Shown here: positions 1,165-49,100 of the stretch, one piece after another
Layout: each line of letters opens with the position of its first letter
Numbering within the stretch: position 1 is the first letter of the stretch
Assembly: GCA_949152475.1 (NCBI GenBank)
Contig: OX424561.1
Span: 434,001-498,000 of the forward strand
Origin: Terebella lapidaria
Taxonomy: Eukaryota; Annelida; Polychaeta; Terebellida; Terebellidae
Direction: 5' to 3'
Length of the DNA: 64,000 nt
Notes under the pieces: model-generated
What the model saw: the letters and a program-made list of their open reading frames with translations, nothing else
Databases searched by the model: none
Told to the model about the DNA's origin: nothing
Position numbers and translations under genes: made by a program

Positions 1165-4100
1165 CTGTGGAGGAATACTGAGAATCAGCGGACCGCACAC
1201 ATAGACATAACAACCCCTCTTGGTACTCGAGCTATAGCGACTACATGACTAAAGTGTTCATCTCAACGACTACCTGACTAAAGTGTTCATCTCAACGACT
1301 ACATGACTAAAGTGTTCATCTCAACGACTACATGACTAAAGTGTTCATCTCAACGACTACATGACTAAAGTGTTCATCTCAACGACTGCATGACTAAAGT
1401 GTTCATCTCAATGACTACACCACTAAAGTGTTCATCTCAACGACTACACCACTAAAGTGTTCATCTCAACGACTACACCACTAAAGTGTTCATCTCAACG
1501 ACTACATGACTAAAGTGTTCATCTCAATGACTACATGACTAGTGTTCATCTCAACGACTACATGACTAAAGTGTTCATCTCAACGACTACACCACTAAAG
1601 TGTTCATCTCAACGACTACATGACTAAAGTGTTCATCTCAATGACTACATGACTAAAGTGTTCATCTCAGCGACTACATGACTAAAGTGTTCATCTCAAC
1701 GACTACATGACTAAAGTGTTCATCTCAACGACTACACCACTAAAGTGTTCATCTCAACGACTACATGACTAAAGTGTTCCTCTCAACGACTACATGACTA
1801 AAGTGTTCCTCTCAACGACTACACCACTGAGGTGTTCATCTCAACGACTACATGACTAAAGTGTTCATCTCAACGACTACACCACTAAAGTGTTCCTCTC
1901 AACGACTACATGACTAAAGTGTTCATCTCAACGACTACATGACTAAAGTGTTCATCTCAACGACTACACCACTAAAGTGTTCCTCTCAACGACTACATGA
2001 CTAAAGTGTTCCTCTCAACGACTACATGACTAAAGTGTTCCTCTCAACGACTACCTGACTAAAGTGTTCATCTAAACGACTACCTGACTAAAGTGTTCAT
2101 CTCAACGACTACATGACTAAAGTGTTCATCTCAGCGACTACATGACTAAAGTGTTCATCTCAACGACTACATGACTAAAGTGTTCATCTCAACGACTACA
2201 CCACTAAAGTGTTCATCTCAACGACTACACCACTAAAGTGTTCATCTCAACAAGCAATAAGCAAATTAAGCATTACCCGCCGTATTTCCTCCAGCCTGTC
2301 ATCATCTTCCAAGAAGAACGTGAGATATTTGTACGAGATGTCAACTTCACAATCTCCTCCCTTCTCCCTGTGTTCCTCCACGGTCGCACCTCCGCCAGAA
2401 AACGCATACTTCATGATCTGTAACAGAACGCGTACTTCATGATCTGTAACAGAACGCATACTTCATGATCTGTAACAGAACGCGTACTTCATGATTTGTA
2501 ACAGAACGCATACTTCATGAACTGTAACAGAACGCATACTTCATGATCTGTAACAGAACGCATACTTCAGGATCTGTAACAGAACGCATACTTCATGATC
2601 TGTAACAGAACGCATACTTCATGATCTGTAACAGAACGCATACTTCATGAACTGTAACAGAACAAGTACTTCATGATCTGTAACAGAACGCATACTTCAG
2701 GATCTGTAACAGAACAAGTACTTCATGATCTGTAACAGAACAGGTACTTCATGATCTGTAACAGAACGCATACTTCATGATCTGTAACAGAACGCATACT
2801 TCATGATCTGTAACAGAACGCATACTTCAGGATCTGTAACAGAACAAGTACTTCATGATTTGTAACAGAACGCATACTTCATGATCTGTAACAGAACGCA
2901 TACTTCAGGATCTGTAACAGAACAAGTACTTCATGATCTGTAACAGAACAAGAACTTCATGATCTGTAACAGAACGCATACTTCATGAACTGTAACAGAA
3001 CGCATACTTCATGATCTGTAACAGAACGCATACTTCATGAACTGTAACAGAACGCATACTTCATGATCTGTAACAGAACGCATACTTCATGATCTGTAAC
3101 AGAACGCATACTTCATGAACTGTAACAGAACAAGTACTTCATGATCTGTAACAGAACGCATACTTCAGGATCTGTAACAGAACAAGTACTTCATGATCTG
3201 TAACAGAACGCATACTTCATGATTTGTAACAGAACAAGTACTTCATGAACTGTAACAGAACGCATACTTCAGGATCTGTAACAGAACAAGTACTTCATGA
3301 TCTGTAACAGAACGCATACTTCAGGATCTGTAACAGAACAAGTACTTCATGATCTGTAACAGAACGCATACTTCATGATCTGTAACAGAACAAGTACTTC
3401 ATGATCTGTAACAGAACACATACTTCAGGATCTGTAACAGAACGCATACTTCAGGATCTGTAACAGAACAAGTACTTCATGATCTGTAACAGAACGCATA
3501 CTTCATGAACTGTAACAGAACAGGTACTTCATAATCTGTAACAGAACGCATACTTCATGAACTGTAACAGAACGCATACTTCATGATCTGTAACAGAACA
3601 AGTACTTCGTGATCTGTAACAGAACGCATACTTCAGGATCTGTAACAGAACGCATACTTCAGGATCTGTAACAGAACAAGTACTTCATGATCTGTAACAG
3701 AACAAGTACTTCATGATCTGTAACAGAACGCATACTTCATGATCTGTAACAGAACGCGTACTTCATGATTTGTAACAGAACGCATACTTCATGATCTGTA
3801 ACAGAACGCATACTTCATGATCTGTAACAGAACGCGTACTTCATGATCTGTAACAGAACGCATACTTCATGATCTGTAACAGAACGCGTACTTCATGATT
3901 TGTAACAGAACGCATACTTCATGATCTGTAACAGAACGCATACTTCATGATCTGTAACAGAACGCATACTTCAGGATCTGTAACAGAACTCATACTTCAT
4001 GATCTGTAACAGAACAAGTACTTCATGATCTGTAACAGAACGCATACTTCAGGATCTGTAACAGAACGCGTACTTCATGAACTGTAACAGAACGCATACT

Positions 4101-7100
4101 TCATGAATGGTAACAGAACAAGTACTTCATGATCTGTAACAGAACGCGTACTTCATGAACTGTAACAGAACGCGTACTTCATGATCTGTAACAGAACGCA
4201 TACTTCATGATCTGTAACAGAACGCGTACTTCATGAACTGTAACAGAACGCATCCTTCATGAACTGTAACAGAACGCATACTTCAGGATCTGTAACAGAA
4301 CGCATACTTCAGGATCTGTAACAGAACGCATACTTCAGGATCTGTAACAGAACGCATACTTCAGGATCTGTAACAGAACGCATACTTCAGGATCTGTAAC
4401 AGAACAAGTACTTCATGATCTGTAACAGAACGCATACTTCAGGATCTGTAACAGAACGCATACTTCAGGATCTGTAACAGAACTCATACTTCATGATCTG
4501 TAACAGAACAAGTACTTCATGATCTGTAACAGAACGCATACTTCAGGATCTGTAACAGAACGCATACTTCAGGATCTGTAACAGAACGCATACTTCAGGA
4601 TCTGTAACAGAACTCATACTTCATGATCTGTAACAGAACAAGTACTTCATGATCTGTAACAGAACGCATACTTCAGGATCTGTAACAGAACTCATACTTC
4701 ATGATCTGTAACAGAACAAGTACTTCATGATCTGTAACAGAACAAGTACTTCATGAACTGTAACAGAACGCATACTTCAGGATCTGTAACAGAACGCATA
4801 CTTCATGAACTGTAACAGAACGCATACTTCAGGATCTGTAACAGAACAAGTACTTCATGATCTGTAACAGAACAAGTACTTCATGATCTGTAACAGAACA
4901 AGTACTTCAGGATCTGTAACAGAACAAGTACTTCATGAACTGTAACAGAACAAGTACTTCATGATCTGTAACAGAACAAGTACTTCATGATCTGTAACAG
5001 AACAAGTACTTCAGGATCTGTAACAGAACGCATACTTCATGATCTGTAACAGAACGCATACTTCAGGATCTGTAACAGAACGCATACTTCATGATCTGTA
5101 ACAGAACGCGTACTTCAGGATCTGTAACAGAACGCATACTTCAGGATCTGTAACAGAACGCATACTTCAGGATCTGTAACAGAACAAGTACTTCATGATC
5201 TGTAACAGAACGCATACTTCAGGATCTGTAACAGAACGCGTACTTCATGAACTGTAACAGAACGCGTACTTCATGAACTGTAACAGAACGCATACTTCAT
5301 GATCTGTAACAGAACGCGTACTTCATGATCTGTAACAGAACGCATACTTCAGGATCTGTAACAGAACGCATACTTCATGATTTGTAACAGAACGCATACT
5401 TCATGATCTGTAACAGAACAAGTACTTCATGAACTGTAACAGAACGCATACTTCAGGATCTGTAACAGAACGCATACTTCAGGATCTGTAACAGAACAAG
5501 TACTTCATGATCTGTAACAGAACGCATACTTCAGGATCTGTAACAGAACAAGTACTTCATGATCTGTAACAGAACGCATACTTCATGATCTGTAACAGAA
5601 CGCATACTTCATGATCTGTAACAGAACGCATACTTCATGATCTGTAACAGAACGCATACTTCAGGATCTGTAACAGAACGCGTACTTCATGAACTGTAAC
5701 AGAACGCATACTTCAGGATCTGTAACAGAACGCGTACTTCATGAACTGTAACAGAACGCATACTTCAGGATCTGTAACAGAACGCATACTTCAGGATCTG
5801 TAACAGAACGCGTACTTCATGAACTGTAACAGAACAGGTACTTCATGATCTGTAACAGAACGCATACTTCAGGATCTGTAACAGAACGCGTACTTCATGA
5901 ACTGTAACAGAACGCATACTTCATGATCTGTAACAGAACGCGTACTTCATGAACTGTAACAGAACGCATACTTCAGGATCTGTAACAGAACGCATACTCT
6001 GTAACAGAACGCGTACTTCATGATTTGTAACAGAACGCGTACTTCATGATCTGTAACAGAACGCATACTTCAGGATCTGTAACAGAACGTGTACTTCATG
6101 ATTTGTAACAGAACGCGTACTTCATGATCTGTAACAGAACGCATACTTCAGGATCTGTAACAGAACAAGTACTTCATGATCTGTAACAGAACGCATACTT
6201 CAGGATCTGTAACAGAACGCATACTTCAGGATCTGTAACAGAACGCATACTTCAGGATCTGTAACAGAACGCGTACTTCATGATTTGTAACAGAACGCGT
6301 ACTTCATGATCTGTAACAGAACGCATACTTCAGGATCTGTAACAGAACGCGTACTTCATGATTTGTAACAGAACGCGTACTTCAGGATCTGTAACAGAAC
6401 AAGTACTTCAGGATTTGTAACAGAACGCGTACTTCATGATCTGTAACAGAACAAGTACTTCAGGATCTGTAACAGAACGCATACTTCAGGATCTGTAACA
6501 GAACGCGTACTTCATGATCTGTAACAGAACGCATACTTCAGGATCTGTAACAGAACGCATACTTCATGATTTGTAACAGAACGCGTACTTCATGATCTGT
6601 AACAGAACAAGTACTTCAGGATCTGTAACAGAACGCATACTTCAGGATCTGTAACAGAACGCGTACTTCAGGATTTGTAACAGAACGCGTACTTCATGAT
6701 CTGTAACAGAACAAGTACTTCAGGATCTGTAACAGAACGCATACTTCAGGATCTGTAACAGAACGCGTACTTCATGATCTGTAACAGAACAAGTACTTCA
6801 TGATTTGTAACAGAACGCATACTTCATGATCTGTAACAGAACAAGTACTTCATGATCTGTAACAGAACACATACTTCATGATCTGTAACAGAACGCATAC
6901 TTCATGATCTGTAACAGAACGCATACTTCATGATCTGTAACAGAACGCATACTTCAGGATCTGTAACAGAACGCATACTTCATGATTTGTAACAGAACGC
7001 GTACTTCATGATTTGTAACAGAACGCGTACTTCATGATCTGTAACAGAACGCATACTTCAGGATCTGTAACAGAACGCATACTTCATGATTTGTAACAGA

Positions 7101-10100
7101 ACGCGTACTTCATGATCTGTAACAGAACAAGTACTTCAGGATCTGTAACAGAACGCATACTTCATGATCTGTAGCAGAACGCATACTTCAGGATCTGTAA
7201 CAGAACGCATACTTCATGATTTGTAACAGAACGCGTACTTCATGATCTGTAACAGAACAAGTACTTCAGGATCTGTAACAGAACGCATACTTCATGATCT
7301 GTAACAGAACGCATACTTCATGATCTGTAACAGAACGCATACTTCAGGATCTGTAACAGAACGCGTACTTCATGATCTGTAACAGAACGCATACTTCAGG
7401 ATCTGTAACAGAACGCGTACTTCAGGATTTGTAACAGAACAAGTACTTCATGATCTGTAACAGAACGCATACTTCATGATCTGTAACAGAACAAGTACTT
7501 CATGATCTGTAACAGAACGCATACTTCATGATCTGTAACAGAACAAGTACTTCATGATCTGTAACAGAACGCATACTTCAGGATCTGTAACAGAACAAGT
7601 ACTTCATGATCTGTAACAGAACGCGTACTTCAGGATCTGTAACAGAACAAGTACTTCATGATCTGTAACAGAACGCATACTTCAGGATCTGTAACAGAAC
7701 GCATACTTCATGATCTGTAACAGAACGCATACTTCATGAACTGTAACAGAACAGGTACTTCATGATCTGTAACAGAACAAGTACTTCATGATCTGTAACA
7801 GAACAAGTACTTCATGATCTGTAACAGAACGCATACTTCATGAACTGTAACAGAACAGGTACTTCATGATCTGTAACAGAACAAGTACTTCATGATCTGT
7901 AACAGAACGCATACTTCAGGATCTGTAACAGAACGCGTACTTCATGATTTGTAACAGAACGCGTACTTCATGATCTGTAACAGAACGCATACTTCAGGAT
8001 CTGTAACAGAACAAGTACTTCATGATCTGTAACAGAACGCGTACTTCATGATCTGTAACAGAACAGGTACTTCATGAACTGTAACAGAACGCATACTTCA
8101 TGATCTGTAACAGAACAAGTACTTCATGATCTGTAACAGAACGCGTACTTCATGAACTGTAACAGAACGCATACTTCATGATTTGTAACAGAACAAGTAC
8201 TTCAGGATTTGTAACAGAACGCATACTTCAGGATCTGTAACAGAACAAGTACTTCATGATCTGTAACAGAACGCATACTTCATGATCTGTAACAGAACGC
8301 ATACTTCAGGATCTGTAACAGAACAAGTACTTCATGATCTGTAACAGAACGCATACTTCAGGATCTGTAACAGAACAAGTACTTCATGATTTGTAACAGA
8401 ACAAGTACTTCATGATCTGTAACAGAACAAGTACTTCATGATCTGTAACAGAACGCATACTTCAGGATCTGTAACAGGACAAGTACTTCATGATCTGTAA
8501 CAGAACAAGTACTTCATGATCTGTAACAGAACGCATACTTCATGATCTGTAACAGAACGCATACTTCATGATCTGTAACAGAACGCGTACTTTATGAACT
8601 GTAACAGAACGCGTACTTCATGATCTGTAACAGAACAAGTACTTCATGAACTGTAACAGAACGCATACTTCATGATCTGTAACAGAACAAGTACTTCATG
8701 ATCTGTAACAGAACGCATACTTCAGGATCTGTAACAGAACGCGTACTTCATGATTTGTAACAGAACGCATACTTCATGAACTGTAACAGAACGCATATTT
8801 CATGATCTGTAACAGAACGCGTACTTCATGAACTGTAACAGAACGCATACTTCATGATTTGTAACAGAACGCATACTTCAGGATCTGTAACAGAACAAGT
8901 ACTTCATGATCTGTAACAGAACGCGTACTTCATGATCTGTAACAGAACGCATACTTCAGGATCTGTAACAGAACGCATACTTCATGATCTGTAACAGAAC
9001 GCGTACTTCATGAACTGTAACAGAACGCATACTTCATGATTTGTAACAGAACGCATACTTCAGGATCTGTAACAGAACAAGTACTTCATGATCTGTAACA
9101 GAACGCGTACTTCATGATCTGTAACAGAACGCATACTTCAGGATCTGTAACAGAACGCGTACTTCATGAACTGTAACAGAACGCGTACTTCATGATCTGT
9201 AACAGAACAAGTACTTCATGAACTGTAACAGAACGCATACTTCATGATCTGTAACAGAACAAGTACTTCATGATCTGTAACAGAACGCATACTTCAGGAT
9301 CTGTAACAGAACGCGTACTTCATGAACTGTAACAGAACGCGTACTTCATGATCTGTAACAGAACAAGTACTTCATGATCTGTAACAGAACAAGTACTTCA
9401 TGATCTGTAACAGAACGCGTACTTCATGAACTGTAACAGAACGCATACTTCAGGATCTGTAACAGAACAAGAACTTCATGATTTGTAACAGAACAGGTAC
9501 TTCATGATCTGTAACAGAACGCATACTTCATGATCTGTAACAGAACGCATACTTCAGGATCTGTAACAGAACAAGTACTTCATGATCTGTAACAGAACGC
9601 ATACTTCAGGATCTGTAACAGAACAAGTACTTCATGATCTGTAACAGAACGCGTACTTCATGATCTGTAACAGAACAGGTACTTCATAATCTGTAACAGA
9701 ACGCGTACTTCATGAACTGTAACAGAACGCATACTTCAGGATCTGTAACAGAACGCATACTTCAGGATCTGTAACAGAACGCATACTTCATGATCTGTAA
9801 CAGAACAAGTACTTCATGATCTGTAACAGAACAAGTACTTCATGATCTGTAACAGAACGCGTACTTCATAATCTGTAACAGAACAAGTACTTCATGATCT
9901 GTAACAGAACGCATACTTCAGGATCTGTAACAGAACAAGTACTTCATGATCTGTAACAGAACAAGTACTTCAGGATCTGTAACAGAACAAGTACTTCATG
10001 ATCTGTAACAGAACGCATACTTCAGGATCTGTAACAGAACGCGTACTTCATGAACTGTAACAGAACGCATACTTCATGATCTGTAACAGAACAAGTACTT

Positions 10101-13100
10101 CATGATTTGTAACAGAACGCATACTTCATGATTTGTAACAGAACAAGTACTTCATGATCTGTAACAGAACAAGTACTTCATGATCTGTAACAGAACAAGT
10201 ACTTCCTGATCTGTAACAGAACGCATACTTCATGAACTGTAACAGAACGCATACTTCATGATCTGTAACAGAACAAGTACTTCATGATTTGTAACAGAAC
10301 GCATACTTCATGATTTGTAACAGAACAAGTACTTCATGATCTGTAACAGAACAAGTACTTCATGATCTGTAACAGAACAAGTACTTCATGATCTGTAACA
10401 GAACGCATACTTCATGAACTGTAACAGAACGCATACTTCATGATCTGTAACAGAACAAGTACTTCATGATCTGTAACAGAACGCATACTTCAGGATCTGT
10501 AACAGAACGCATATTTCATGATCTGTAACAGAACGCATACTTCAGGATCTGTAACAGAACAAGTACTTCATGAACTGTAACAGAACGCATACTTCAGGAT
10601 CTGTAACAGAACAAGTACTTCATGATCTGTAACAGAACGCATACTTCAGGATCTGTAACAGAACGCATACTTCAGGATCTGTAACAGAACAAGTACTTCA
10701 TGATCTGTAACAGAACGCATACTTCATGATCTGTAACAGAACGCATACTTCAGGATCTGTAACAGAACAAGAACTTCATGATTTGTAACAGAACAAGTAC
10801 TTCATGATCTGTAACAGAACAGGTACTTCATGATTTGTAACAGAACGCGTACTTCATGAACTGTAACAGAACGCATACTTCAGGATCTGTAACAGAACGC
10901 GTACTTCATGATCTGTAACAGAACGCATACTTCATGAACTGTAACAGAACGCATACTTCAGGATCTGTAACAGAACGCATACTTCAGGATCTGTAACAGA
11001 ACGCATACTTCATGAACTGTAACAGAACGCATACTTCAGGATCTGTAACAGAACGCGTACTTCATGATCTGTAACAGAACGCATACTTCAGGATTTGTAA
11101 CAGAACAAGTACTTCATGATCTGTAACAGAACGCATACTTCATGAACTGTAACAGAACGCATACTTCAGGATCTGTAACAGAACGCATACTTCAGGATCT
11201 GTAACAGAACAAGAACTTCATGATTTGTAACAGAACAAGTACTTCATGATCTGTAACAGAACGCGTACTTCATGATCTGTAACAGAACAAGAACTTCATG
11301 ATTTGTAACAGAACAAGTACTTCATGATCTGTAACAGAACGCATACTTCATGATCTGTAACAGAACAAGTACTTCATGATCTGTAACAGAACGCATACTT
11401 CAGGATCTGTAACAGAACAAGTACTTCATGATTTGTAACAGAACGCATACTTCATGAACTGTAACAGAACAAGTACTTCATGATCTGTAACAGAACGCAT
11501 ACTTCATGATCTGTAACAGAACGCATACTTCATGAACTGTAACAGAACGCATACTTCAGGATCTGTAACAGAACAAGTACTTCATGATCTGTAACAGAAC
11601 GCATACTTCATGATCTGTAACAGAACGCATACTTCATGATCTGTAACAGAACGCATACTTCATGATCTGTAACAGAACGCGTACTTCATGATTTGTAACA
11701 GAACGCGTACTTCATGATCTGTAACAGAACAAGTACTTCATGATCTGTAACAGAACGCGTACTTCATGATTTGTAACAGAACGCATACTTCATGAACTGT
11801 AACAGAACGCATACTTCATGATTTGTAACAGAACGCGTACTTCATGATCTGTAACAGAACGCGTACTTCATGATTTGTAACAGAACGCGTACTTCATGAT
11901 CTGTAACAGAACAAGTACTTCATGATCTGTAACAGAACGCGTACTTCATGATTTGTAACAGAACGCATACTTCATGATCTGTAACAGAACGCATACTTCA
12001 TGATCTGTAACAGAACGCATACTTCATGATCTGTAACAGAACGCGTACTTCATGATTTGTAACAGAACGCGTACTTCATGATCTGTAACAGAACAAGTAC
12101 TTCATGATCTGTAACAGAACGCATACTTCATGATTTGTAACAGAACGCGTACTTCATGATCTGTAACAGAACAAGTACTTCATGATCTGTAACAGAACAA
12201 GTACTTCATGATTTGTAACAGAACGCGTACTTCATGATCTGTAACAGAACGCGTACTTCATGATCTGTAACAGAACAAGTACTTCAGGATCTGTAACAGA
12301 ACGCATACTTCATGATCTGTAACAGAACAAGTACTTCATGAACTGTAACAGAACGCGTACTTCATGATCTGTAACAGAACGCGTACTTCATGATCTGTAA
12401 CAGAACAAGTACTTCATGATCTGTAACAGAACGCGTACTTCATGATTTTAACAGAACGCATACTTCATGATCTGTAACAGAACAAGTACTTCATGATCTG
12501 TAACAGAACGCATACTTCATGATCTGTAACAGAACGCATACTTCATGATCTGTAACAGAACGCATACTTCATGATCTGTAACAGAACAAGTACTTCATGA
12601 TCTGTAACAGAACGCGTACTTCATGATCTGTAACAGAACGCATACTTCATGATCTGTAACAGAACAAGTACTTCATGATCTGTAACAGAACGCGTACTTC
12701 AGGATCTGTAACAGAACAAGTACTTCATGATCTGTAACAGAACGCGTACTTCATGATTTGTAACAGAACGCATACTCCATGAACTGTAACAGAACAAGTA
12801 CTTCATGATCTGTAACAGAACGCGTACTTCAGGATCTGTAACAGAACAAGTACTTCATGATCTGTAACAGAACGCGTACTTCATGATTTGTAACAGAACG
12901 CATACTCCATGAACTGTAACAGAACAAGTACTTCATGATCTGTAACAGAATGCGTACTTCATGATTTGTAACAGAACGCATACTCCAGGATCTGTAACAG
13001 AACGCATACTTCAGGATCTGTAACAGAACGCATACTTCAGGATCTGTAGCAGAACAAGTACTTCATGATCTGTAACAGAACGCATACTTCAGGATCTGTA

Positions 13101-16100
13101 ACAGAACGCGTACTTCATGATTTGTAACAGAACGCGTACTTCATGAACTGTAACAGAACGCATACTTCAGGATCTGTAACAGAACAAGTACTTCATGAAC
13201 TGTAACAGAACGCATACTTCAGGATCTGTAACAGAACAAGTACTTCATGATCTGTAACAGAACGCATACTTCATGATCTGTAACAGAACAAGTACTTCAT
13301 GAACTGTAACAGAACGCGTACTTCATGATCTGTAACAGAACGCGTACTTCATGATCTGTAACAGAACAAGTACTTCATGATCTGTAACAGAACGCGTACT
13401 TCAGGATCTGTAGCAGAACGCATACTTCAGGATCTGTAACAGAACAAGTACTTCAGGATCTGTAACAGAACAAGTACTTCATGATCTGTAACAGAACGCG
13501 TACTTCAGGATCTGTAGCAGAACAAGTACTTCATGATCTGTAACAGAACGCATACTTCAGGATCTGTAACAGAACGCGTACTTCATGATTTGTAACAGAA
13601 CAAGTACTTCATGATCTGTAACAGAACGCATACTTCAGGATCTGTAACAGAATGCATACTTCAGGATCTGTAACAGAACAAGTACTTCATGAACTGTAAC
13701 AGAACGCATACTTCAGGATCTGTAACAGAACAAGTACTTCATGATCTGTAACAGAACGCATACTTCAGGATCTGTAACAGAACAAGTACTTCAGGATCTG
13801 TAACAGAACAAGTACTTCATGATCTGTAACAGAACGCGTACTTCATGAACTGTAACAGAACGCGTACTTCATGATCTGTAACAGAACGCATACTTCATGA
13901 TTTGTAACGGAACGCATACTTCATGATTTGTAACGGAACGCATACTTCATGATCTGTAACAGAACAAGTACTTCATGAACTGTAACAGAACGCGTACTTC
14001 ATGAACTGTAACAGAACGCATACTTCATGATCTGTAACAGAACAAGTACTTCATGATCTGTAACAGAACAAGTACTTCAGGATCTGTAACAGAACAGGTA
14101 CTTCATGATCTGTAACAGAACGCATACTTCAGGATCTGTAACAGAACAAGTACTTCATGATCTGTAACAGAACAAGTACTTCATGATCTGTAACAGAACG
14201 CATACTTCAGGATCTGTAACAGAACAAGTACTTCATGATCTGTAACAGAACGCGTACTTCATGATTTGTAACAGAACAAGTACTTCATGATTTGTAACAG
14301 AACGCATACTTCATGATTTGTAACAGAACGCGTACTTCATGATCTGTAACAGAACAAGAACTTCATGATTTGTAACAGAACAAGTACTTCATGATCTGTA
14401 ACAGAACGCGTACTTCATGATCTGTAACAGAACAAGAACTTCATGATTTGTAACAGAACAAGTACTTCATGATCTGTAACAGAACGCATACTTCATGATC
14501 TGTAACAGAACAAGTACTTCATGATCTGTAACAGAACGCATACTTCAGGATCTGTAACAGAACAAGTACTTCATGATTTGTAACAGAACGCATACTTCAT
14601 GAACTGTAACAGAACAAGTACTTCATGATCTGTAACAGAACGCATACTTCATGATCTGTAACAGAACGCATACTTCATGAACTGTAACAGAACGCATACT
14701 TCAGGATCTGTAACAGAACAAGTACTTCATGATCTGTAACAGAACGCATACTTCATGATCTGTAACAGAACGCATACTTCATGATCTGTAACAGAACGCA
14801 TACTTCATGATCTGTAACAGAACGCGTACTTCATGATTTGTAACAGAACGCGTACTTCATGATCTGTAACAGAACAAGTACTTCATGATCTGTAACAGAA
14901 CGCGTACTTCATGATTTGTAACAGAACGCATACTTCATGAACTGTAACAGAACGCATACTTCATGATTTGTAACAGAACGCGTACTTCATGATCTGTAAC
15001 AGAACGCGTACTTCATGATTTGTAACAGAACGCGTACTTCATGATCTGTAACAGAACAAGTACTTCATGATCTGTAACAGAACGCGTACTTCATGATTTG
15101 TAACAGAACGCATACTTCATGATCTGTAACAGAACGCATACTTCATGATCTGTAACAGAACGCATACTTCATGATCTGTAACAGAACGCGTACTTCATGA
15201 TTTGTAACAGAACGCGTACTTCATGATCTGTAACAGAACAAGTACTTCATGATCTGTAACAGAACGCATACTTCATGATTTGTAACAGAACGCGTACTTC
15301 ATGATCTGTAACAGAACAAGTACTTCATGATCTGTAACAGAACAAGTACTTCATGATTTGTAACAGAACGCGTACTTCATGATCTGTAACAGAACGCGTA
15401 CTTCATGATCTGTAACAGAACAAGTACTTCAGGATCTGTAACAGAACAAGTACTTCATGATCTGTAACAGAACGCGTACTTCATGATTTTAACAGAACGC
15501 ATACTTCATGATCTGTAACAGAACAAGTACTTCATGATCTGTAACAGAACGCGTACTTCATGATCTGTAACAGAACGCATACTTCAGGATCTGTAACAGA
15601 ACTCATACTTCATGATTTGTAACAGAACGCGTACTTCAGGATCTGTAACAGAACAAGTACTTCATGATCTGTAACAGAACGCGTACTTCATGATCTGTAA
15701 CAGAACGCATACTTCATGATCTGTAACAGAACAAGTACTTCATGATCTGTAACAGAACGCGTACTTCATGATCTGTAACAGAACGCATACTTCATGATCT
15801 GTAACAGAACAAGTACTTCATGATCTGTAACAGAACGCGTACTTCAGGATCTGTAACAGAACAAGTACTTCATGATCTGTAACAGAACGCGTACTTCATG
15901 ATTTGTAACAGAACGCATACTCCATGAACTGTAACAGAACAAGTACTTCATGATCTGTAACAGAACGCGTACTTCAGGATCTGTAACAGAACAAGTACTT
16001 CATGATCTGTAACAGAACGCGTACTTCATGATTTGTAACAGAACGCATACTCCATGAACTGTAACAGAACAAGTACTTCATGATCTGTAACAGAATGCGT

Positions 16101-34100: not shown

Positions 34101-37100
34101 ATCTGTAACAGAACAAGTACTTCATGATCTGTAACAGAACGCATACTTCAGGATCTGTAACAGAACGCATACTTCAGGATCTGTAACAGAACGCATACTT
34201 CATGAACTGTAACAGAACAAGTACTTCATGATCTGTAACAGAACAAGTACTTCATGATCTGTAACAGAACGCATACTTCAGGATCTGTAACAGAACGCAT
34301 ACTTCAGGATCTGTAACAGAACACATACTTCATGAACTGTAACAGAACAAGTACTTCATGATCTGTAACAGAACGCATACTTCAGGATCTGTAACAGAAC
34401 AAGTACTTCATGATCTGTAACAGAACGCATACTTCAGGATCTGTAACAGAACAAGTACTTCATGATCTGTAACAGAACGCATACTTCAGGATCTGTAACA
34501 GAACAAGTACTTCATGATCTGTAACAGAACAAGTACTTCATGATCTGTAACAGAACGCATACTTCATGATCTGTAACAGAACGCATACTTCAGGATCTGT
34601 AACAGAACAAGTACTTCATGATCTGTAACAGAACGCATACTTCAGGATCTGTAACAGAACGCATACTTCAGGATCTGTAACAGAACAAGTACTTCATGAT
34701 CTGTAACAGAACGCATACTTCAGGATCTGTAACAGAACGCATACTTCAGGATCTGTAACAGAACTCATACTTCATGATCTGTAACAGAACAAGTACTTCA
34801 TGATCTGTAACAGAACGCATACTTCAGGATCTGTAACAGAACAAGAACTTCATGATCTGTAACAGAACAAGTACTTCATGATCTGTAACAGAACGCATAC
34901 TTCAGGATCTGTAACAGAACGCGTACTTCATGATCTGTAACAGAACAAATACTTCATGAACTGTAACAGAACGCATACTTCAGGATCTGTAACAGAACGC
35001 GTACTTCATGATCTGTAACAGAACAAGTACTTCATGATCTGTAACAGAACAAGTACTTCAGGATCTGTAACAGAACGCATACTTCATGATCTGTAACAGA
35101 ATGCATACTTCAGGATCTGTAACAGAACAAGTACTTCATGATCTGTAACAGAACGCATACTTCATGATTTGTAACAGAACAAGTACTTCATGATCTGTAA
35201 CAGAACGCGTACTTCAGGATCTGTAGCAGAACAAGTACTTCATGATCTGTAACAGAACGCATACTTCATGATCTGTAACAGAACGCATACTTCATGATCT
35301 GTAACAGAACGCATACTTCATGATCTGTAACAGAACGCGTACTTCATGATTTGTAACAGAACGCGTACTTCATGATCTGTAACAGAACAAGTACTTCATG
35401 ATCTGTAACAGAACGCGTACTTCATGATTTGTAACAGAACGCATACTTCATGAACTGTAACAGAACGCATACTTCATGATTTGTAACAGAACGCGTACTT
35501 CATGATCTGTAACAGAACGCGTACTTCATGATTTGTAACAGAACGCGTACTTCATGATCTGTAACAGAACAAGTACTTCATGATCTGTAACAGAACGCGT
35601 ACTTCATGATTTGTAACAGAACGCATACTTCATGATCTGTAACAGAACGCATACTTCATGATCTGTAACAGAACGCATACTTCATGATCTGTAACAGAAC
35701 GCGTACTTCATGATTTGTAACAGAACGCGTACTTCATGATCTGTAACAGAACAAGTACTTCATGATCTGTAACAGAACGCATACTTCATGATTTGTAACA
35801 GAACGCGTACTTCATGATCTGTAACAGAACAAGTACTTCATGATCTGTAACAGAACAAGTACTTCATGATTTGTAACAGAACGCGTACTTCATGATCTGT
35901 AACAGAACGCGTACTTCATGATCTGTAACAGAACAAGTACTTCAGGATCTGTAACAGAACAAGTACTTCATGATCTGTAACAGAACGCGTACTTCATGAT
36001 TTTAACAGAACGCATACTTCATGATCTGTAACAGAACAAGTACTTCATGATCTGTAACAGAACGCGTACTTCATGATCTGTAACAGAACGCATACTTCAG
36101 GATCTGTAACAGAACTCATACTTCATGATTTGTAACAGAACGCGTACTTCAGGATCTGTAACAGAACAAGTACTTCATGATCTGTAACAGAACGCGTACT
36201 TCATGATCTGTAACAGAACGCATACTTCATGATCTGTAACAGAACAAGTACTTCATGATCTGTAACAGAACGCGTACTTCATGATCTGTAACAGAACGCA
36301 TACTTCATGATCTGTAACAGAACAAGTACTTCATGATCTGTAACAGAACGCGTACTTCAGGATCTGTAACAGAACAAGTACTTCATGATCTGTAACAGAA
36401 CGCGTACTTCATGATTTGTAACAGAACGCATACTCCATGAACTGTAACAGAACAAGTACTTCATGATCTGTAACAGAACGCGTACTTCAGGATCTGTAAC
36501 AGAACAAGTACTTCATGATCTGTAACAGAACGCGTACTTCATGATTTGTAACAGAACGCATACTCCATGAACTGTAACAGAACAAGTACTTCATGATCTG
36601 TAACAGAATGCGTACTTCATGATTTGTAACAGAACGCATACTCCAGGATCTGTAACAGAACGCATACTTCAGGATCTGTAACAGAACGCATACTTCAGGA
36701 TCTGTAGCAGAACAAGTACTTCATGATCTGTAACAGAACGCATACTTCAGGATCTGTAACAGAACGCGTACTTCATGATTTGTAACAGAACGCGTACTTC
36801 ATGAACTGTAACAGAACGCATACTTCAGGATCTGTAACAGAACAAGTACTTCATGAACTGTAACAGAACGCATACTTCAGGATCTGTAACAGAACAAGTA
36901 CTTCATGATCTGTAACAGAACGCATACTTCAGGATCTGTAACAGAACAAGTACTTCATGAACTGTAACAGAACGCGTACTTCATGATCTGTAACAGAACG
37001 CGTACTTCATGATCTGTAACAGAACAAGTACTTCATGATCTGTAACAGAACGCGTACTTCAGGATCTGTAGCAGAACGCATACTTCAGGATCTGTAACAG

Positions 37101-40100
37101 AACAAGTACTTCAGGATCTGTAACAGAACAAGTACTTCATGATCTGTAACAGAACGCGTACTTCAGGATCTGTAGCAGAACAAGTACTTCATGATCTGTA
37201 ACAGAACGCATACTTCAGGATCTGTAACAGAACGCGTACTTCATGATTTGTAACAGAACGCGTACTTCATGAACTGTAACAGAACGCATACTTCAGGATC
37301 TGTAACAGAACAAGTACTTCATGAACTGTAACAGAACGCATACTTCAGGATCTGTAACAGAACAAGTACTTCATGATCTGTAACAGAACGCATACTTCAG
37401 GATCTGTAACAGAACAAGTACTTCAGGATCTGTAACAGAACAAGTACTTCATGATCTGTAACAGAACGCGTACTTCATGAACTGTAACAGAACGCGTACT
37501 TCATGATCTGTAACAGAACGCATACTTCATGATTTGTAACGGAACGCATACTTCATGATTTGTAACGGAACGCATACTTCATGATCTGTAACAGAACAAG
37601 TACTTCAGGATCTGTAACAGAACAAGTACTTCATGAACTGTAACAGAACGCGTACTTCATGAACTGTAACAGAACGCATACTTCATGATCTGTAACAGAA
37701 CAAGTACTTCATGATCTGTAACAGAACAAGTACTTCAGGATCTGTAACAGAACAAGTACTTCATGAACTGTAACAGAACGCATACTTCAGGATCTGTAAC
37801 AGAACAAGTACTTCATGATCTGTAACAGAACAAGTACTTCATGATCTGTAACAGAACGCATACTTCAGGATCTGTAACAGAACAAGTACTTCATGATCTG
37901 TAACAGAACGCGTACTTCATGATTTGTAACAGAACAAGTACTTCATGATTTGTAACAGAACGCATACTTCATGATTTGTAACAGAACGCGTACTTCAGGA
38001 TCTGTAACAGAACGCGTACTTCATGATCTGTAACAGAACGCGTACTTCAGGATCTGTAACAGAACGCATACTTCATGATCTGTAACAGAACGCATACTTC
38101 ATGATCTGTAACAGAACACATACTTCAGGATCTGTAACAGAACGCGTACTTCAGGATCTGTAACAGAACAAGTACTTCATGATCTGTAACAGAACGCATA
38201 CTTCATGATCTGTAACAGAACAAGTACTTCATGATCTGTAACAGAACAAGTACTTCATGATCTGTAACAGAACGCATACTTCAGGATCTGTAACAGAACA
38301 AGTACTTCATGATCTGTAACAGAACGCATACTTCATGATCTGTAACAGAACAAGTACTTCATGATCTGTAACAGAACAAGTACTTCATGATCTGTAACAG
38401 AACGCATACTTCAGGATCTGTAACAGAACGCATACTTCAGGATCTGTAACAGAATGCATACTTCAGGATCTGTAACAGAACGCATACTTCATGATCTGTA
38501 ACAGAACAAGTACTTCATGATCTGTAACAGAACAAGTACTTCATGATCTGTAACAGAACAAGTACTTCATGATCTGTAACAGAACGCATACTTCAGGATC
38601 TGTAACAGAACAGGTACTTCATGATCTGTAACAGAACAAGTACTTCATGAACTGTAACAGAACAAGTACTTCATGATTTGTAACAGAACGCATACTTCAG
38701 GATCTGTAACAGAACAAGTACTTCATGAACTGTAACAGAACGCATACTTCATGATCTGTAACAGAACGCATACTTCAGGATCTGTAACAGAACGCATACT
38801 TCAGGATCTGTAACAGAACAAGTACTTCATGATCTGTAACAGAACGCATACTTCATGATCTGTAACAGAACGCATACTTCATGATCTGTAACAGAACGCA
38901 TACTTCATGATCTGTAACAGAACGCATACTTCATGATCTGTAACAGAACAGGTACTTCATGATTTGTAACAGAACGCATACTTCAGGATCTGTAACAGAA
39001 CGCATACTTCAGGATCTGTAACAGAACAAGTACTTCATGATCTGTAACAGAACAAGTACTTCATGAACTGTAACAGAACAAGTACTTCATGATCTGTAAC
39101 AGAACGCATACTTCAGGATCTGTAACAGAACAAGTACTTCATGATTTGTAACAGAACGCATACTTCAGGATCTGTAACAGAACAAGTACTTCATGAACTG
39201 TAACAGAACGCATACTTCAGGATCTGTAACAGAACAAGTACTTCATGATCTGTAACAGAACGCATACTTCATGATCTGTAACAGAACGCATACTTCAGGA
39301 TCTGTAACAGAACGCATACTTCATGATCTGTAACAGAACGCGTACTTCAGGATCTGTAACAGAACAAGTACTTCATGATCTGTAACAGAACAAGTACTTC
39401 ATGAACTGTAACAGAACAAGTACTTCATGATCTGTAACAGAACGCATACTTCAGGATCTGTAACAGAACAAGTACTTCATGATTTGTAACAGAACGCATA
39501 CTTCAGGATCTGTAACAGAACGCATACTTCAGGATCTGTAACAGAACAAGTACTTCATGATTTGTAACAGAACGCATACTTCAGGATCTGTAACAGAACG
39601 CATACTTCAGGATCTGTAACAGAACAAGTACTTCATGATTTGTAACAGAACGCATACTTCAGGATCTGTAACAGAACAAGTACTTCATGATTTGTAACAG
39701 AACGCATACTTCAGGATCTGTAACAGAACAAGTACTTCATGATCTGTAACAGAACGCGTACTTCATGATCTGTAACAGAACAAGTACTTCAGGATCTGTA
39801 ACAGAACGCGTACTTCATGATCTGTAACAGAACGCATACTTCAGGATCTGTAACAGAACACATACTTCATGAACTGTAACAGAACAAGTACTTCATGATC
39901 TGTAACAGAACAAGTACTTCAGGATCTGTAACAGAACAAGTACTTCATGAACTGTAACAGAACAAGTACTTCATGATCTGTAACAGAACGCGTACTTCAT
40001 GAACTGTAACAGAACAAGTACTTCATGATCTGTAACAGAACAAGTACTTCATGATCTGTAACAGAACAAGTACTTCATGATCTGTAACAGAACGCGTACT

Positions 40101-43100
40101 TCATGAACTGTAACAGAACGCGTACTTCAGGATCTGTAACAGAACAAGTACTTCATGATCTGTAACAGAACAAGTACTTCATGATCTGTAACAGAACGCA
40201 TACTTCAGGATCTGTAACAGAACAAGTACTTCAGGATCTGTAACAGAACAAGTACTTCATGATCTGTAACAGAACAAGTACTTCAGGATCTGTAACAGAA
40301 CAAGTACTTCAGGATCTGTAACAGAACAAGTACTTCAGGATCTGTAACAGAACAAGTACTTCATGATCTGTAACAGAACGCGTACTTCATGATCTGTAAC
40401 AGAACGCGTACTTCATGATCTGTAACAGAACAGGTACTTCATGATCTGTAACAGAACGCGTACTTCATGAACTGTAACAGAACGCATACTTCATGAACTG
40501 TAACAGAACAAGTACTTCATGATCTGTAACAGAACGCATACTTCATGATCTGTAACAGAACAAGTACTTCAGGATCTGTAACAGAACAAGTACTTCATGA
40601 TCTGTAACAGAACAAGTACTTCATGATCTGTAACAGAACAAGTACTTCAGGATCTGTAACAGAACAAGTACTTCAGGATCTGTAACAGAACAAGTACTTC
40701 ATGATCTGTAACAGAACGCATACTTCATGATCTGTAACAGAACAAGTACTTCAGGATCTGTAACAGAACAAGTACTTCATGATCTGTAACAGAACAAGTA
40801 CTTCATGATCTGTAACAGAACAAGTACTTCATGATCTGTAACAGAACGCATACTTCATGATCTGTAACAGAACAAGTACTTCATGATCTGTAACAGAACA
40901 AGTACTTCATGATCTGTAACAGAACAAGTACTTCATGATCTGTAACAGAACAAGTACTTCAGGATCTGTAACAGAACAAGTACTTCAGGATCTGTAACAG
41001 AACAAGTACTTCAGGATCTGTAACAGAACAAGTACTTCATGATCTGTAACAGAACAAGTACTTCATGAACTGTAACAGAACAAGTACTTCATGAACTGTA
41101 ACAGAACGCATACTTCATGATCTGTAACAGAACAAGTACTTCATGATCTGTAACAGAACGCATACTTCAGGATCTGTAACAGAACAAGTACTTCAGGATC
41201 TGTAACAGAACAAGTACTTCAGGATCTGTAACAGAACAAGTACTTCATGAACTGTAACAGAACAAGTACTTCATGAACTGTAACAGAACGCATACTTCAT
41301 GATCTGTAACAGAACAAGTACTTCATGATCTGTAACAGAACGCATACTTCAGGATCTGTAACAGAACGCATACTTCATGATCTGTAACAGAACGCATACT
41401 TCATGAACTGTAACAGAACAAGTACTTCATGATCTGTAACAGAACGCATACTTCATGATCTGTAACAGAACAAGTACTTCATGATCTGTAACAGAACAAG
41501 TACTTCATGATCTGTAACAGAACGCATACTTCATGATCTGTAACAGAACGCATACTTCAGGATCTGTAACAGAACGCATACTTCATGATCTGTAACAGAA
41601 CGCATACTTCAGGATCTGTAACAGAACGCATACTTCAGGATCTGTAACAGAACAAGTACTTCATGAACTGTAACAGAACGCATACTTCATGATCTGTAAC
41701 AGAACGCATACTTCAGGATCTGTAACAGAACGCATACTTCATGATCTGTAACAGAACGCATACTTCATGATCTGTAACAGAACGCATACTTCAGGATCTG
41801 TAACAGAACGCATACTTCATGATCTGTAACAGAACAAGTACTTCAGGATCTGTAACAGAACAAGTACTTCATGATCTGTAACAGAACAAGTACTTCATGA
41901 TCTGTAACAGAACAAGTACTTCAGGATCTGTAACAGAACGCGTACTTCAGGATCTGTAGCAGAACGCATACTTCATGATCTGTAACAGAACAAGTACTTC
42001 AGGATCTGTAACAGAACAAGTACTTCATGATCTGTAACAGAACGCATACTTCATGATCTGTAACAGAACAGGTACTTCATGATCTGTAACAGAACAAGTA
42101 CTTCATGATCTGTAACAGAACGCATACTTCAGGATCTGTAACAGAACAAGTACTTCATGATCTGTAACAGAACGCATACTTCAGGATCTGTAACAGAACA
42201 AGTACTTCATGATCTGTAACAGAACGCATACTTCATGAACTGTAACAGAACAAGTACTTCATGAACTGTAACAGAACAAGTACTTCATGAACTGTAACAG
42301 AACGCATACTTCATGATCTGTAACAGAACAAGTACTTCATGATCTGTAACAGAACAAGTACTTCAGGATCTGTAACAGAACGCATACTTCATGATTTGTA
42401 ACAGAACAAATACTTCATGATCTGTAACAGAACGCGTACTTCATGAACTGTAACAGAACGCGTACTTCATGATCTGTAACAGAACAAGTACTTCATGATC
42501 TGTAACAGAACGCATACTTCAGGATCTGTAACAGAACGCATACTTCATGATCTGTAACAGAACAAGTACTTCATGATCTGTAACAGAACAAGTACTTCAG
42601 GATCTGTAACAGAACAAGTACTTCAGGATCTGTAACAGAACAAGTACTTCATGATCTGTAACAGAACGCGTACTTCATGATCTGTAACAGAACGCGTACT
42701 TCATGATCTGTAACAGAACAGGTACTTCATGATCTGTAACAGAACGCGTACTTCATGAACTGTAACAGAACGCATACTTCATGAACTGTAACAGAACAAG
42801 TACTTCATGATCTGTAACAGAACGCATACTTCATGATCTGTAACAGAACAAGTACTTCAGGATCTGTAACAGAACAAGTACTTCATGATCTGTAACAGAA
42901 CAAGTACTTCATGATCTGTAACAGAACAAGTACTTCAGGATCTGTAACAGAACAAGTACTTCAGGATCTGTAACAGAACAAGTACTTCATGATCTGTAAC
43001 AGAACGCATACTTCATGATCTGTAACAGAACAAGTACTTCAGGATCTGTAACAGAACAAGTACTTCATGATCTGTAACAGAACAAGTACTTCATGATCTG

Positions 43101-46100
43101 TAACAGAACAAGTACTTCAGGATCTGTAACAGAACAAGTACTTCATGATCTGTAACAGAACGCATACTTCATGAACTGTAACAGAACAAGTACTTCATGA
43201 ACTGTAACAGAACAAGTACTTCATGAACTGTAACAGAACAAGTACTTCAGGATCTGTAACAGAACAAGTACTTCAGGATCTGTAACAGAACAAGTACTTC
43301 AGGATCTGTAACAGAACAAGTACTTCATGATCTGTAACAGAACAAGTACTTCATGATCTGTAACAGAACAAGTACTTCAGGATCTGTAACAGAACAAGTA
43401 CTTCATGATTTGTAACAGAACGCATACTTCATGATCTGTAACAGAACAAGTACTTCATGATCTGTAACAGAACAAGTACTTCAGGATCTGTAACAGAACA
43501 AGTACTTCAGGATCTGTAACAGAACAAGTACTTCATGATCTGTAACAGAACGCATACTTCATGATCTGTAACAGAACAAGTACTTCAGGATCTGTAACAG
43601 AACAAGTACTTCATGATCTGTAACAGAACAAGTACTTCATGATCTGTAACAGAACAAGTACTTCATGATCTGTAACAGAACGCATACTTCATGATCTGTA
43701 ACAGAACAAGTACTTCATGATCTGTAACAGAACAAGTACTTCATGATCTGTAACAGAACAAGTACTTCATGATCTGTAACAGAACAAGTACTTCAGGATC
43801 TGTAACAGAACAAGTACTTCAGGATCTGTAACAGAACAAGTACTTCAGGATCTGTAACAGAACAAGTACTTCATGATCTGTAACAGAACAAGTACTTCAT
43901 GAACTGTAACAGAACAAGTACTTCATGAACTGTAACAGAACGCATACTTCATGATCTGTAACAGAACAAGTACTTCATGATCTGTAACAGAACGCATACT
44001 TCAGGATCTGTAACAGAACAAATACTTCAGGATCTGTAACAGAACAAGTACTTCAGGATCTGTAACAGAACAAGTACTTCAGGATCTGTAACAGAACAAG
44101 TACTTCAGGATCTGTAACAGAACGCATACTTCATGATCTGTAACAGAACAAGTACTTCATGATCTGTAACAGAACGCATACTTCAGGATCTGTAACAGAA
44201 CAAGTACTTCATGATCTGTAACAGAACGCATACTTCAGGATCTGTAACAGAACGCATACTTCATGATCTGTAACAGAACGCATACTTCATGAACTGTAAC
44301 AGAACAAGTACTTCATGAACTGTAACAGAACAAGTACTTCATGAACTGTAACAGAACGCATACTTCATGATCTGTAACAGAACAAGTACTTCATGATCTG
44401 TAACAGAACGCATACTTCAGGATCTGTAACAGAACGCATACTTCATGATCTGTAACAGAACGCATACTTCATGAACTGTAACAGAACAAGTACTTCATGA
44501 TCTGTAACAGAACGCATACTTCATGATCTGTAACAGAACAAGTACTTCATGATCTGTAACAGAACAAGTACTTCATGATCTGTAACAGAACGCATACTTC
44601 ATGATCTGTAACAGAACGCATACTTCAGGATCTGTAACAGAACGCATACTTCATGATCTGTAACAGAACGCATACTTCAGGATCTGTAACAGAACGCATA
44701 CTTCAGGATCTGTAACAGAACAAGTACTTCATGAACTGTAACAGAACGCATACTTCATGATCTGTAACAGAACGCATACTTCAGGATCTGTAACAGAACG
44801 CATACTTCATGATCTGTAACAGAACGCATACTTCATGATCTGTAACAGAACGCATACTTCAGGATCTGTAACAGAACGCATACTTCATGATCTGTAACAG
44901 AACAAGTACTTCAGGATCTGTAACAGAACAAGTACTTCATGATCTGTAACAGAACAAGTACTTCATGATCTGTAACAGAACAAGTACTTCAGGATCTGTA
45001 ACAGAACGCGTACTTCAGGATCTGTAGCAGAACGCATACTTCATGATCTGTAACAGAACAAGTACTTCAGGATCTGTAACAGAACAAGTACTTCATGATC
45101 TGTAACAGAACGCATACTTCATGATCTGTAACAGAACAGGTACTTCATGATCTGTAACAGAACAAGTACTTCATGATCTGTAACAGAACGCATACTTCAG
45201 GATCTGTAACAGAACAAGTACTTCATGATCTGTAACAGAACGCATACTTCAGGATCTGTAACAGAACAAGTACTTCATGATCTGTAACAGAACGCATACT
45301 TCATGAACTGTAACAGAACAAGTACTTCATGAACTGTAACAGAACAAGTACTTCATGAACTGTAACAGAACAAGTACTTCATGAACTGTAACAGAACGCA
45401 TACTTCATGATCTGTAACAGAACAAGTACTTCATGATCTGTAACAGAACAAGTACTTCAGGATCTGTAACAGAACGCATACTTCATGATTTGTAACAGAA
45501 CAAATACTTCATGATCTGTAACAGAACGCGTACTTCATGAACTGTAACAGAACGCGTACTTCATGATCTGTAACAGAACAAGTACTTCATGATCTGTAAC
45601 AGAACGCATACTTCAGGATCTGTAACAGAACGCATACTTCAGGATCTGTAACAGAACGCGTACTTCATGAACTGTAACAGAACAAGTACTTCATGAACTG
45701 TAACAGAACGCATACTTCATGATCTGTAACAGAACAAGTACTTCATGATCTGTAACAGAACGCGTACTTCATGATCTGTAACAGAACGCATACTTCATGA
45801 TCTGTAACAGAACGCGTACTTCATGAACTGTAACAGAACAAGTACTTCATGAACTGTAACAGAACGCATACTTCATGATCTGTAACAGAACAAGTACTTC
45901 ATGATCTGTAAGAGAACGCGTACTTCATGATCTGTAACAGAACAAGTACTTCATGATCTGTAACAGAACAAGTACTTCATGATCTGTAACAGAACGCATA
46001 CTTCAGGATCTGTAACAGAACGCATACTTCATGAACTGTAACAGAACGCATACTTCATGATCTGTAACAGAATGCATACTTCAGGATCTGTAACAGAACG

Positions 46101-49100
46101 CATACTTCAGGATCTGTAACAGAACAAGTACTTCATGATCTGTAACAGAACAAGTACTTCATGATCTGTAAGAGAACGCGTACTTCATGATCTGTAACAG
46201 AACAAGTACTTCATGATCTGTAACAGAACAAGTACTTCATGATCTGTAACAGAACGCATACTTCAGGATCTGTAACAGAACGCATACTTCAGGATCTGTA
46301 ACAGAACAAGTACTTCATGATCTGTAACAGAACGCATACTTCAGGATCTGTAACAGAACGCATACTTCAGGATCTGTAACAGAACGCATACTTCATGAAC
46401 TGTAACAGAACAAGTACTTCATGATCTGTAACAGAACAAGTACTTCATGATCTGTAACAGAACGCATACTTCAGGATCTGTAACAGAACGCATACTTCAG
46501 GATCTGTAACAGAACACATACTTCATGAACTGTAACAGAACAAGTACTTCATGATCTGTAACAGAACGCATACTTCAGGATCTGTAACAGAACAAGTACT
46601 TCATGATCTGTAACAGAACGCATACTTCAGGATCTGTAACAGAACAAGTACTTCATGATCTGTAACAGAACGCATACTTCAGGATCTGTAACAGAACAAG
46701 TACTTCATGATCTGTAACAGAACAAGTACTTCATGATCTGTAACAGAACGCATACTTCATGATCTGTAACAGAACGCATACTTCAGGATCTGTAACAGAA
46801 CAAGTACTTCATGATCTGTAACAGAACGCATACTTCAGGATCTGTAACAGAACGCATACTTCAGGATCTGTAACAGAACAAGTACTTCATGATCTGTAAC
46901 AGAACGCATACTTCAGGATCTGTAACAGAACGCATACTTCAGGATCTGTAACAGAACTCATACTTCATGATCTGTAACAGAACAAGTACTTCATGATCTG
47001 TAACAGAACGCATACTTCAGGATCTGTAACAGAACAAGAACTTCATGATCTGTAACAGAACAAGTACTTCATGATCTGTAACAGAACGCATACTTCAGGA
47101 TCTGTAACAGAACGCGTACTTCATGATCTGTAACAGAACAAATACTTCATGAACTGTAACAGAACGCATACTTCAGGATCTGTAACAGAACGCGTACTTC
47201 ATGATCTGTAACAGAACAAGTACTTCATGATCTGTAACAGAACAAGTACTTCAGGATCTGTAACAGAACGCATACTTCATGATCTGTAACAGAATGCATA
47301 CTTCAGGATCTGTAACAGAACAAGTACTTCATGATCTGTAACAGAACGCATACTTCATGATTTGTAACAGAACAAGTACTTCATGATCTGTAACAGAACG
47401 CGTACTTCATGATTTGTAACAGAACGCATACTTCATGATTTGTAACAGAACGCATACTTCAGGATCTGTAACAGAACGCATACTTCAGGATCTGTAACAG
47501 AATGCGTACTTCATGATTTGTAACAGAACGCATACTTCATGATTTGTAACAGAACGCATACTTCAGGATCTGTAACAGAACGCATACTTCAGGATCTGTA
47601 ACAGAACGCATACTTCAGGATCTGTAACAGAACGCATACTTCATGATCTGTAACAGAACGCGTACTTCATGATCTGTAACAGAACAAGTACTTCATGATC
47701 TGTAACAGAACAAGTACTTCAGGATCTGTAACAGAACGCGTACTTCATGATCTGTAACAGAATGCATACTTCAGGATCTGTAACAGAACGCGTACTTCAT
47801 GATCTGTAACAGAACGCATACTTCAGGATCTGTAACGGAACGCATACTTCAGGATCTGTAACAGAACGCGTACTTCATGATCTGTAACAGAATGCATACT
47901 TCAGGATCTGTAACAGAACGCGTACTTCATGATCTGTAACAGAACGCATACTTCATGATCTGTAACAGAACGCATACTTCAGGATCTGTAACAGAACGCG
48001 TACTTCATGATCTGTAACAGAACGCATACTTCAGGATCTGTAACGGAACGCATACTTCAGGATCTGTAACAGAACGCGTACTTCATGAACTGTAACAGAA
48101 CGCATACTTCAGGATCTGTAACAGAACGCGTACTTCATGAACTGTAACAGAACGCATACTTCATGATCTGTAACAGAATGCATACTTCATGATTTGTAAC
48201 AGAACGCATACTTCAGGATCTGTAACAGAACGCATACTTCAGGATCTGTAACAGAACAAATACTTCATGAACTGTAACAGAACGCATACTTCAGGATCTG
48301 TAACAGAACGCATACTTCATGAACTGTAACAGAACGCATACTTCATGATCGGTTAAGGAACACGTACTTCATGATCTGTAACAGGTACTTCATAATCTGT
48401 TACTATGGTGACATAATGTTGTTACAAATGCTTTATTCTCTTTACTATATATTTGAATGACCTTGTTTTTGATCTGTTTGGGAGTGTCTGTCAGGTAGAT
48501 AGACGAGGCCGCGACACTGCCGCTCATTTTGGTCTGTGCGCCCAGCAAGGACGGGATGAAGGAGGAATGGATGAGAGCAGGCTTCATGTAACCAAGTCTG
48601 GGGGCGACATCGCGTGTCATACGGAAGTACGGGTCCTGAAACACGAGAGGGCACACAAGGATCATACACAGGAAGCGTACAGGTATCACACACAGGCAGT
48701 TCACAGTACCAGAGCAGTATATAATACTATACAAATCCTAATTGTAAGGACTGTGTTTGTTCTCACCTGGTCGATGGCGCAAGGAATAAGGCATGGGATA
48801 TCTTTACGGCCATTGAATATCTGCGGGAACGCTACACTGAACGACGGCGTGGCCTGAATCGCAGGAAAGCTGATTTTGCCAATACAGTCTGTGTCTTGAA
48901 AACCAAAGATCCCACGCGCCTGATTGAATGTTACACACTTCTGGACCCGACACATTGTGGTGTAGAATGCTCGCGACTGGCTGGAACGAACAAGACAAAT
49001 TACAACCTTTCAGCATTTAAAATTCACAACTTTAGCAAAGATTTAAAGATTTATGATTTGCAACAAATATAACTGACATGTAATCATTTACTGTACTAGG

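Follow-up and report, generated by a model that had tools for sequence, protein, structure and literature searches.

A minisatellite built on a splice junction fills nearly all of a 46-kb WARS1 intron in Terebella lapidaria

Tandem repeats whose units straddle an intron-exon boundary have been described in a few animal genes, and are given here as their reports summarize them. In lancelets, "mirage" minisatellites are duplicates of such boundaries in Adh3, globin (BflGb6/BflGb9) and troponin C genes, and they have been likened to PGBD5 repeats (PMC3087553, PMC3902484). In BflGb6, the duplicated segment consists of the 3' end of an intron and the 5' portion of the exon that follows, and RT-PCR by the same authors suggests that lancelet mirages are spliced regularly (PMC3087553). 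In the human CBS gene, a 31-bp VNTR, c.1444_1467+7, is present in 16-21 copies; further, the variant c.844_845ins68 duplicates the intron 7/exon 8 junction, and its distal site is strongly favored, such that the upstream copy leaves as intron (PMC2630376). Human segmental duplications harbor internal tandem repeats at exon-intron boundaries, which can become intron (PMC2812944). Large or repetitive introns provide a second set of comparisons: the CACNA1C TRACT is a 30-bp intronic VNTR of 3-30+ kb (PMC13131567), an intronic VNTR of TERT illustrates that such repeats can shift splicing (PMC11830802), and transcripts of Drosophila Y-linked genes must be spliced across gigantic introns (PMC11207136) that are, by the title of another report, satellite-bearing (PMC6508621). 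The initial annotation of the locus detailed below knew of no described satellite made from a splice junction of a housekeeping gene; with the lancelet mirages, the human boundary repeats and the CBS VNTR all published, its claim of novelty is not upheld.

In this report, we analyzed a window of 64,000 nucleotides from Terebella lapidaria (assembly GCA_949152475.1, contig OX424561.1, positions 434,001 to 498,000) that contains a complete WARS1 gene. Its features are as follows (a slash within a sequence marks the splice junction).

1006..53205, minus strand: WARS1 coding region, complete gene, 8 coding exons, 416 aa
53055-53205, minus strand: WARS1 coding exon 1
49700-49808, minus strand: WARS1 coding exon 2
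49468-49587, minus strand: WARS1 coding exon 3
49115-49297, minus strand: WARS1 coding exon 4
48767-48980, minus strand: WARS1 coding exon 5
48462-48635, minus strand: WARS1 coding exon 6, 174 bp, donor AAG/GTCATT
2418..48461, minus strand: WARS1 intron 6, 46,044 bp
48404..48461, minus strand: the 58 bp of intron 6 that lie outside the array
2401..48403, minus strand: 26-bp tandem array of 1,770 units, CTGTTACAG/ATCATGAAGTAYGCGTT, by wraparound alignment
2401..2426, minus strand: gene-touching unit, comprising the last 9 intron bases (2418-2426) and the first 17 exon 7 bases (2401-2417); putative working acceptor
2277-2417, minus strand: WARS1 coding exon 7, 141 bp
1006-1164, minus strand: WARS1 coding exon 8

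The range first assigned to the array, 2277..48461, does cover exon 7 and intron 6, but not the array alone. We consider it likely that the array arose by duplication of the intron 6/exon 7 boundary, grew within the intron, and is spliced by exon definition to its last unit.

The product of the host gene is cytoplasmic tryptophanyl-tRNA synthetase. Its 416 codons run without a stop, and GT and AG are present at all seven introns, whose lengths, from intron 1 to intron 7, are 3,246, 112, 170, 134, 131, 46,044 and 1,112 bp; introns 2-5 thus measure only 112-170 bp against the 46,044 bp of intron 6. The whole protein matches Pfam tRNA-synt_1b (E 5.1e-22). With a query that carried one wrong residue, a 158-aa part matches human TrpRS (E 8.5e-70), and relatives reach 82% identity over 94%. 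The top named relatives are from a nemertean (Tubulanus), an oyster and an annelid (Capitella), and the catalytic loop KMSGS is common to Capitella, Helobdella and others. By these affinities alone, the host would be placed among the lophotrochozoans, perhaps with the annelids.

Intron 6 begins AAG/GTCATT and ends CTGTTACAG/ATC, with exon 7 opening ATCATG. Aligned to this junction, the repeat unit scores 52, and the maximum among 500 mononucleotide shuffles is 21, which bears out the annotated composition of the unit as the end of intron 6 joined to the start of exon 7. Two marks of mirage minisatellites are a unit that straddles one of the host gene's exon-intron boundaries and copies that bear potential splice signals. 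Further traits of such minisatellites are a normal mRNA in spite of the repeats, length polymorphism and somatic instability, the present analysis covering one haplotype. The unit here comprises 9 intron and 17 exon bases, and AG is kept at 1,602 of 1,768 upstream acceptor positions, a count that leaves aside the truncated first unit. Of the 1,765 full-length ungapped units, 231 have the sequence of the gene-proximal one, CTGTTACAG/ATCATGAAGTATGCGTT, itself counted.

That the gene-touching unit is the one in use, as initially proposed, is supported by protein homology rather than by RNA. We aligned WARS1 with the best 120 listed of 8,000 scored relatives, a set dominated by oysters whose rows are not independent. 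None of the 121 rows has a gap in the 37 columns around the exon 6/7 junction, and among the readings tried, the one that joins KNK to the start of exon 7 is gapless. Such continuity in the relatives makes it very probable that the acceptor in use is the gene-touching unit. The 17 exon bases of the unit code for IMKYAF, where 116 of the 120 relatives have [IV]NKYA[FY]; given this conserved and gapless place, the natural direction of the copying is from exon to array.

Traffic in the other direction is unlikely, though it deserves consideration. The array could be a large store of variant exon starts, and gene conversion between it and the live exon could make the minisatellite and the opening codons of this essential enzyme's exon co-evolve. 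Array units do hold variants of the exon-start codons (I/F at codon 1, M/L at codon 2 and A/L at codon 5), and the live exon has M at codon 2, where N is found in 119 of the 120 relatives and M in one; this change from N to M would be one product of such conversion. The case for an array-driven change is weakened because the sole relative with M (P0224) also has the rare V after KMSGS. The T. lapidaria protein has V at this position, too (in exon 6, 48462-48635), and its loop differs from those of nearly all 120 relatives. That P0224 carries both residues suggests that the V and the codon-2 M are coupled substitutions.

Another possibility is that this copy of WARS1 is broken or not expressed and that the enzyme is supplied by a second one. 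Twelve of 222 near-invariant columns deviate in this protein, including N319M, D300V and Q290L, and this count ranks third highest among the 121 rows, a set rich in oysters. However, it is near the counts of other lophotrochozoans (Capitella and Lineus each have 11), and the frame is open with GT and AG at every intron. We therefore consider a broken copy quite unlikely.

Wraparound alignment resolves the array into 1,770 units, the first of them truncated, with 15 bases deleted and none inserted, in agreement with the initial estimate of about 1,770 copies; also upheld is the statement that the array makes up all of intron 6 but 58 bp. Tandem Repeats Finder (TRF) places the array at 2401-48384 with 91% matches. 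There are 60 distinct unit sequences, the commonest in 433 copies, and mean pairwise identity is 0.908 in a sample of 20,000 pairs. Heterozygosity is below 0.02 at 20 of the 26 unit positions; nearly all variation is held by positions 9, 10, 13 and 21-23. On average, heterozygosity is 0.023 at the nine intronic positions versus 0.129 at the 17 exonic ones. The G of the acceptor AG falls at position 9, which is A instead in 159 units. At the exon 6-side edge, the units are degenerate.

The 58-bp non-array stretch is no more similar to the unit than shuffles are (fraction 0.46; inner 37 bases, 0.23), nor is the end of exon 6 with the start of intron 6 (fraction 0.17). Birth of the intron itself from the duplication was considered and rejected, as neither of these segments is more unit-like than shuffles. 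For the remainder of exon 7, the shuffle fraction is 0.013, one of four tests and uncorrected. A 20-base pattern of the unit has two single matches in 257 billion bases of bacterial and archaeal contigs, where about one is estimated by chance, and no match in viral contigs.

The internal order of the array points to its mode of growth. Autocorrelation of unit types peaks at 0.20, against 0.13 by chance, for lags of both 363 and 3 units, followed by 13 and 121 (0.18 each). Among 175 twenty-unit blocks, 50 have an exact twin elsewhere in the array and 93 have one that agrees at 80% or more; spacings of 363, 121, 469 and 789 units recur. This pattern fits growth by block duplication and not simple expansion during assembly. 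That the length of the array is largely an assembly artefact is improbable for another reason as well: the longest exact repeat found in it is 1,705 bp, which is short relative to long reads, so that such reads could be placed uniquely. Along with the block structure, the gradients of variants look biological.

The 10 units nearest the working unit differ from it by 0.90 mismatches on average, versus 2.07 for the whole array; 1.0% of windows of neighboring units are as low, and for the nearest 80 units no window is as low, these windows being overlapping and the fractions not probabilities. For BflGb6, a homogenized interior from which the edges are excluded is reported; in the present array, the units at the exon 6-side edge are degenerate, and the neighbors on the exon 7 side resemble the edge unit more, not less. 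Local exchange with the gene-side edge, or seeding from it, would explain the similar neighbors. In the order suggested by this one genome, a short stretch running from the intron 6 acceptor into exon 7 would first have been duplicated in tandem, and copies lying after the donor and before the last acceptor would have turned into intron. Unequal exchange or slippage, including duplications of blocks of about 120 units, would then have expanded the array to about 1,770 copies, with the last unit kept in place by selection on the protein.

How a single acceptor is chosen among some 1,770 was posed at the outset as a mechanistic puzzle. The premise of near-identical copies stands: 190 of the 1,768 upstream 23-mers (20 intron plus 3 exon bases) are identical to that of the working acceptor, and the core acceptor therefore cannot decide the choice. 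In the last 120 intron bases, the part examined here, branch-like A's are found 20, 23 and 30 nt upstream of the end of intron 6 and recur with every unit, which makes the array look like a string of acceptor modules. Donors are another matter. The motifs AGGT, GTAAG and GTGAG each occur 0 times in the 45,986 bases of the array. By a simple nine-base count, the best donor-like array sites (19 of them) match the consensus at 6 of 9 positions, and the donors of WARS1 introns 1-7 match at 7, 7, 7, 6, 8, 7 and 6. The lack of donors is thus not absolute, because those of introns 4 and 7 equal these 19 sites; the intron 6 donor, at 7, lies within the gene's range of 6-8 and is no outlier.

It is established for animal genes that a downstream donor confirms an acceptor, a process termed exon definition. 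In exon 7, 141 bases separate the last acceptor from the donor, and only 4, 6, 9 and 13 upstream units lie within 250, 300, 400 and 500 bases of this donor. Exon definition would then leave a handful of sites in competition rather than 1,770. The donor of exon 7, at 2276, would pair with the nearest competent upstream acceptor, i.e., the last unit, and the acceptors of the remaining array would, for want of a good donor, not be defined as exons. Given also that AG is absent at 166 of the 1,768 upstream positions and that the array has no AG/GT, the difficulty of the choice was probably overstated. The cost of error is plain: all 1,602 AG-bearing upstream acceptors lead to a premature stop, which for 1,582 of them lies 10 codons beyond the junction. 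Since 26 cannot be divided by 3, the frame is shifted and runs into a TGA in the unit. Misuse of near-by acceptors would thus produce transcripts with premature stops, presumably cleared by nonsense-mediated decay.

A selector based on RNA structure was also considered. A tandem of the unit is predicted to form a long nested hairpin. For four unit variants, this fold is no more stable than those of dinucleotide-shuffled tandems (fraction as stable, 0.275-0.53 with RNA and 0.125-0.305 with DNA parameters), and the predicted pairing of the last ACAG, 0.11, is no different from the average over 36 array units near by (0.11, sd 0.16). With unexceptional stability and a true acceptor that is paired as much as its near-by copies, we rejected the hiding of array acceptors in hairpins as the selector.

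There is little likelihood that the array is excised piecewise, by recursive splicing through its own acceptor-like and donor-like sites. The regularly recurring branch-like A's and a weak GT in the units (GAA/GTAYGC, by eye) would suit such a process, but classical recursive splice sites are AG/GT, which the array lacks, and the piece from AG to GT within a unit is 8 nt long and out of frame (by eye). It is very improbable that an alternative donor, GTAAAG, 16 nt into intron 6, is joined to the next-to-last acceptor, which would keep the frame open and place an in-frame 14-aa insertion before IMKYAF, since none of the 120 relatives has an insertion there and the AAG/GTCATT donor already matches as well as the gene's others.

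The window holds other repeats and genes. A 29-bp minisatellite of 35 copies (1238-2251) occupies most of WARS1 intron 7; its unit has no match to the flanking splice junctions. A 42-bp array of 58.5 copies (61544-64000) runs to the end of the window just downstream of an exon of a WD40 gene, and both of its strands contain long open frames. In three tests, neither the 29-bp nor the 42-bp array matched its flanking sequence. WARS1 intron 1 contains a 147-bp repeat family (50438-52141) with about 6.5 copies and related longer repeats, and similar sequence seems, by eye, to recur near 55237-55549. The WD40 gene lies head-to-head with WARS1 from 58439 on, and is probably WDR25, the best of five matches with a gene name (52% over 30%); human WARS1 and WDR25 are neighbors as well. 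At 1-57, the end of a plus-strand frame reads DGDKKVSFEEFAAYMSGK-stop and appears EF-hand-like by eye.

Set beside the described systems, the WARS1 array shares with the lancelet mirages its boundary-spanning tandem units, many copies of which keep AG and GT signals, and BflGb6 duplicates the same side of the intron. The scale and the hosts differ: the two haplotypes of BflGb6 carry 6 and 3 units, each of 150-160 bp, and Adh3 has units of 10-72 bp, against 1,770 units of 26 bp here, and the mirage hosts are lancelets, not a lophotrochozoan-like animal. The CBS VNTR is alike in that its unit, by its name, comprises 24 exon and 7 intron bases, but it lies on the donor side; the ins68 variant has two copies only, and the paper's wording for it is "splice donor sites". 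The human boundary repeats are also minisatellites, with units of about 30 bp, but have about 4 copies and average 160 bp. The CACNA1C TRACT is similar in unit length and array size, with a splice junction unmentioned in its abstract, and the Drosophila Y introns are of megabase scale, their abstract being silent on units that contain a splice site. Among the open-licence titles and abstract openings listed, we found no boundary repeat of comparable copy number. As far as these searches show, the copy number (1,770 versus a handful to 21), the near-total occupation of the intron and the lophotrochozoan-like host are new. The WARS1 array is thus an extreme but real case of a known type of repeat, not a new category. 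It takes boundary minisatellites to a copy number far above the few in the papers cited here, presents an essential-gene intron that such a repeat has enlarged to 46 kb, and offers a natural experiment in acceptor choice, in which about 1,600 AG-bearing near-copies, 190 of them identical over 23 bases, lie upstream of the one that the protein requires.
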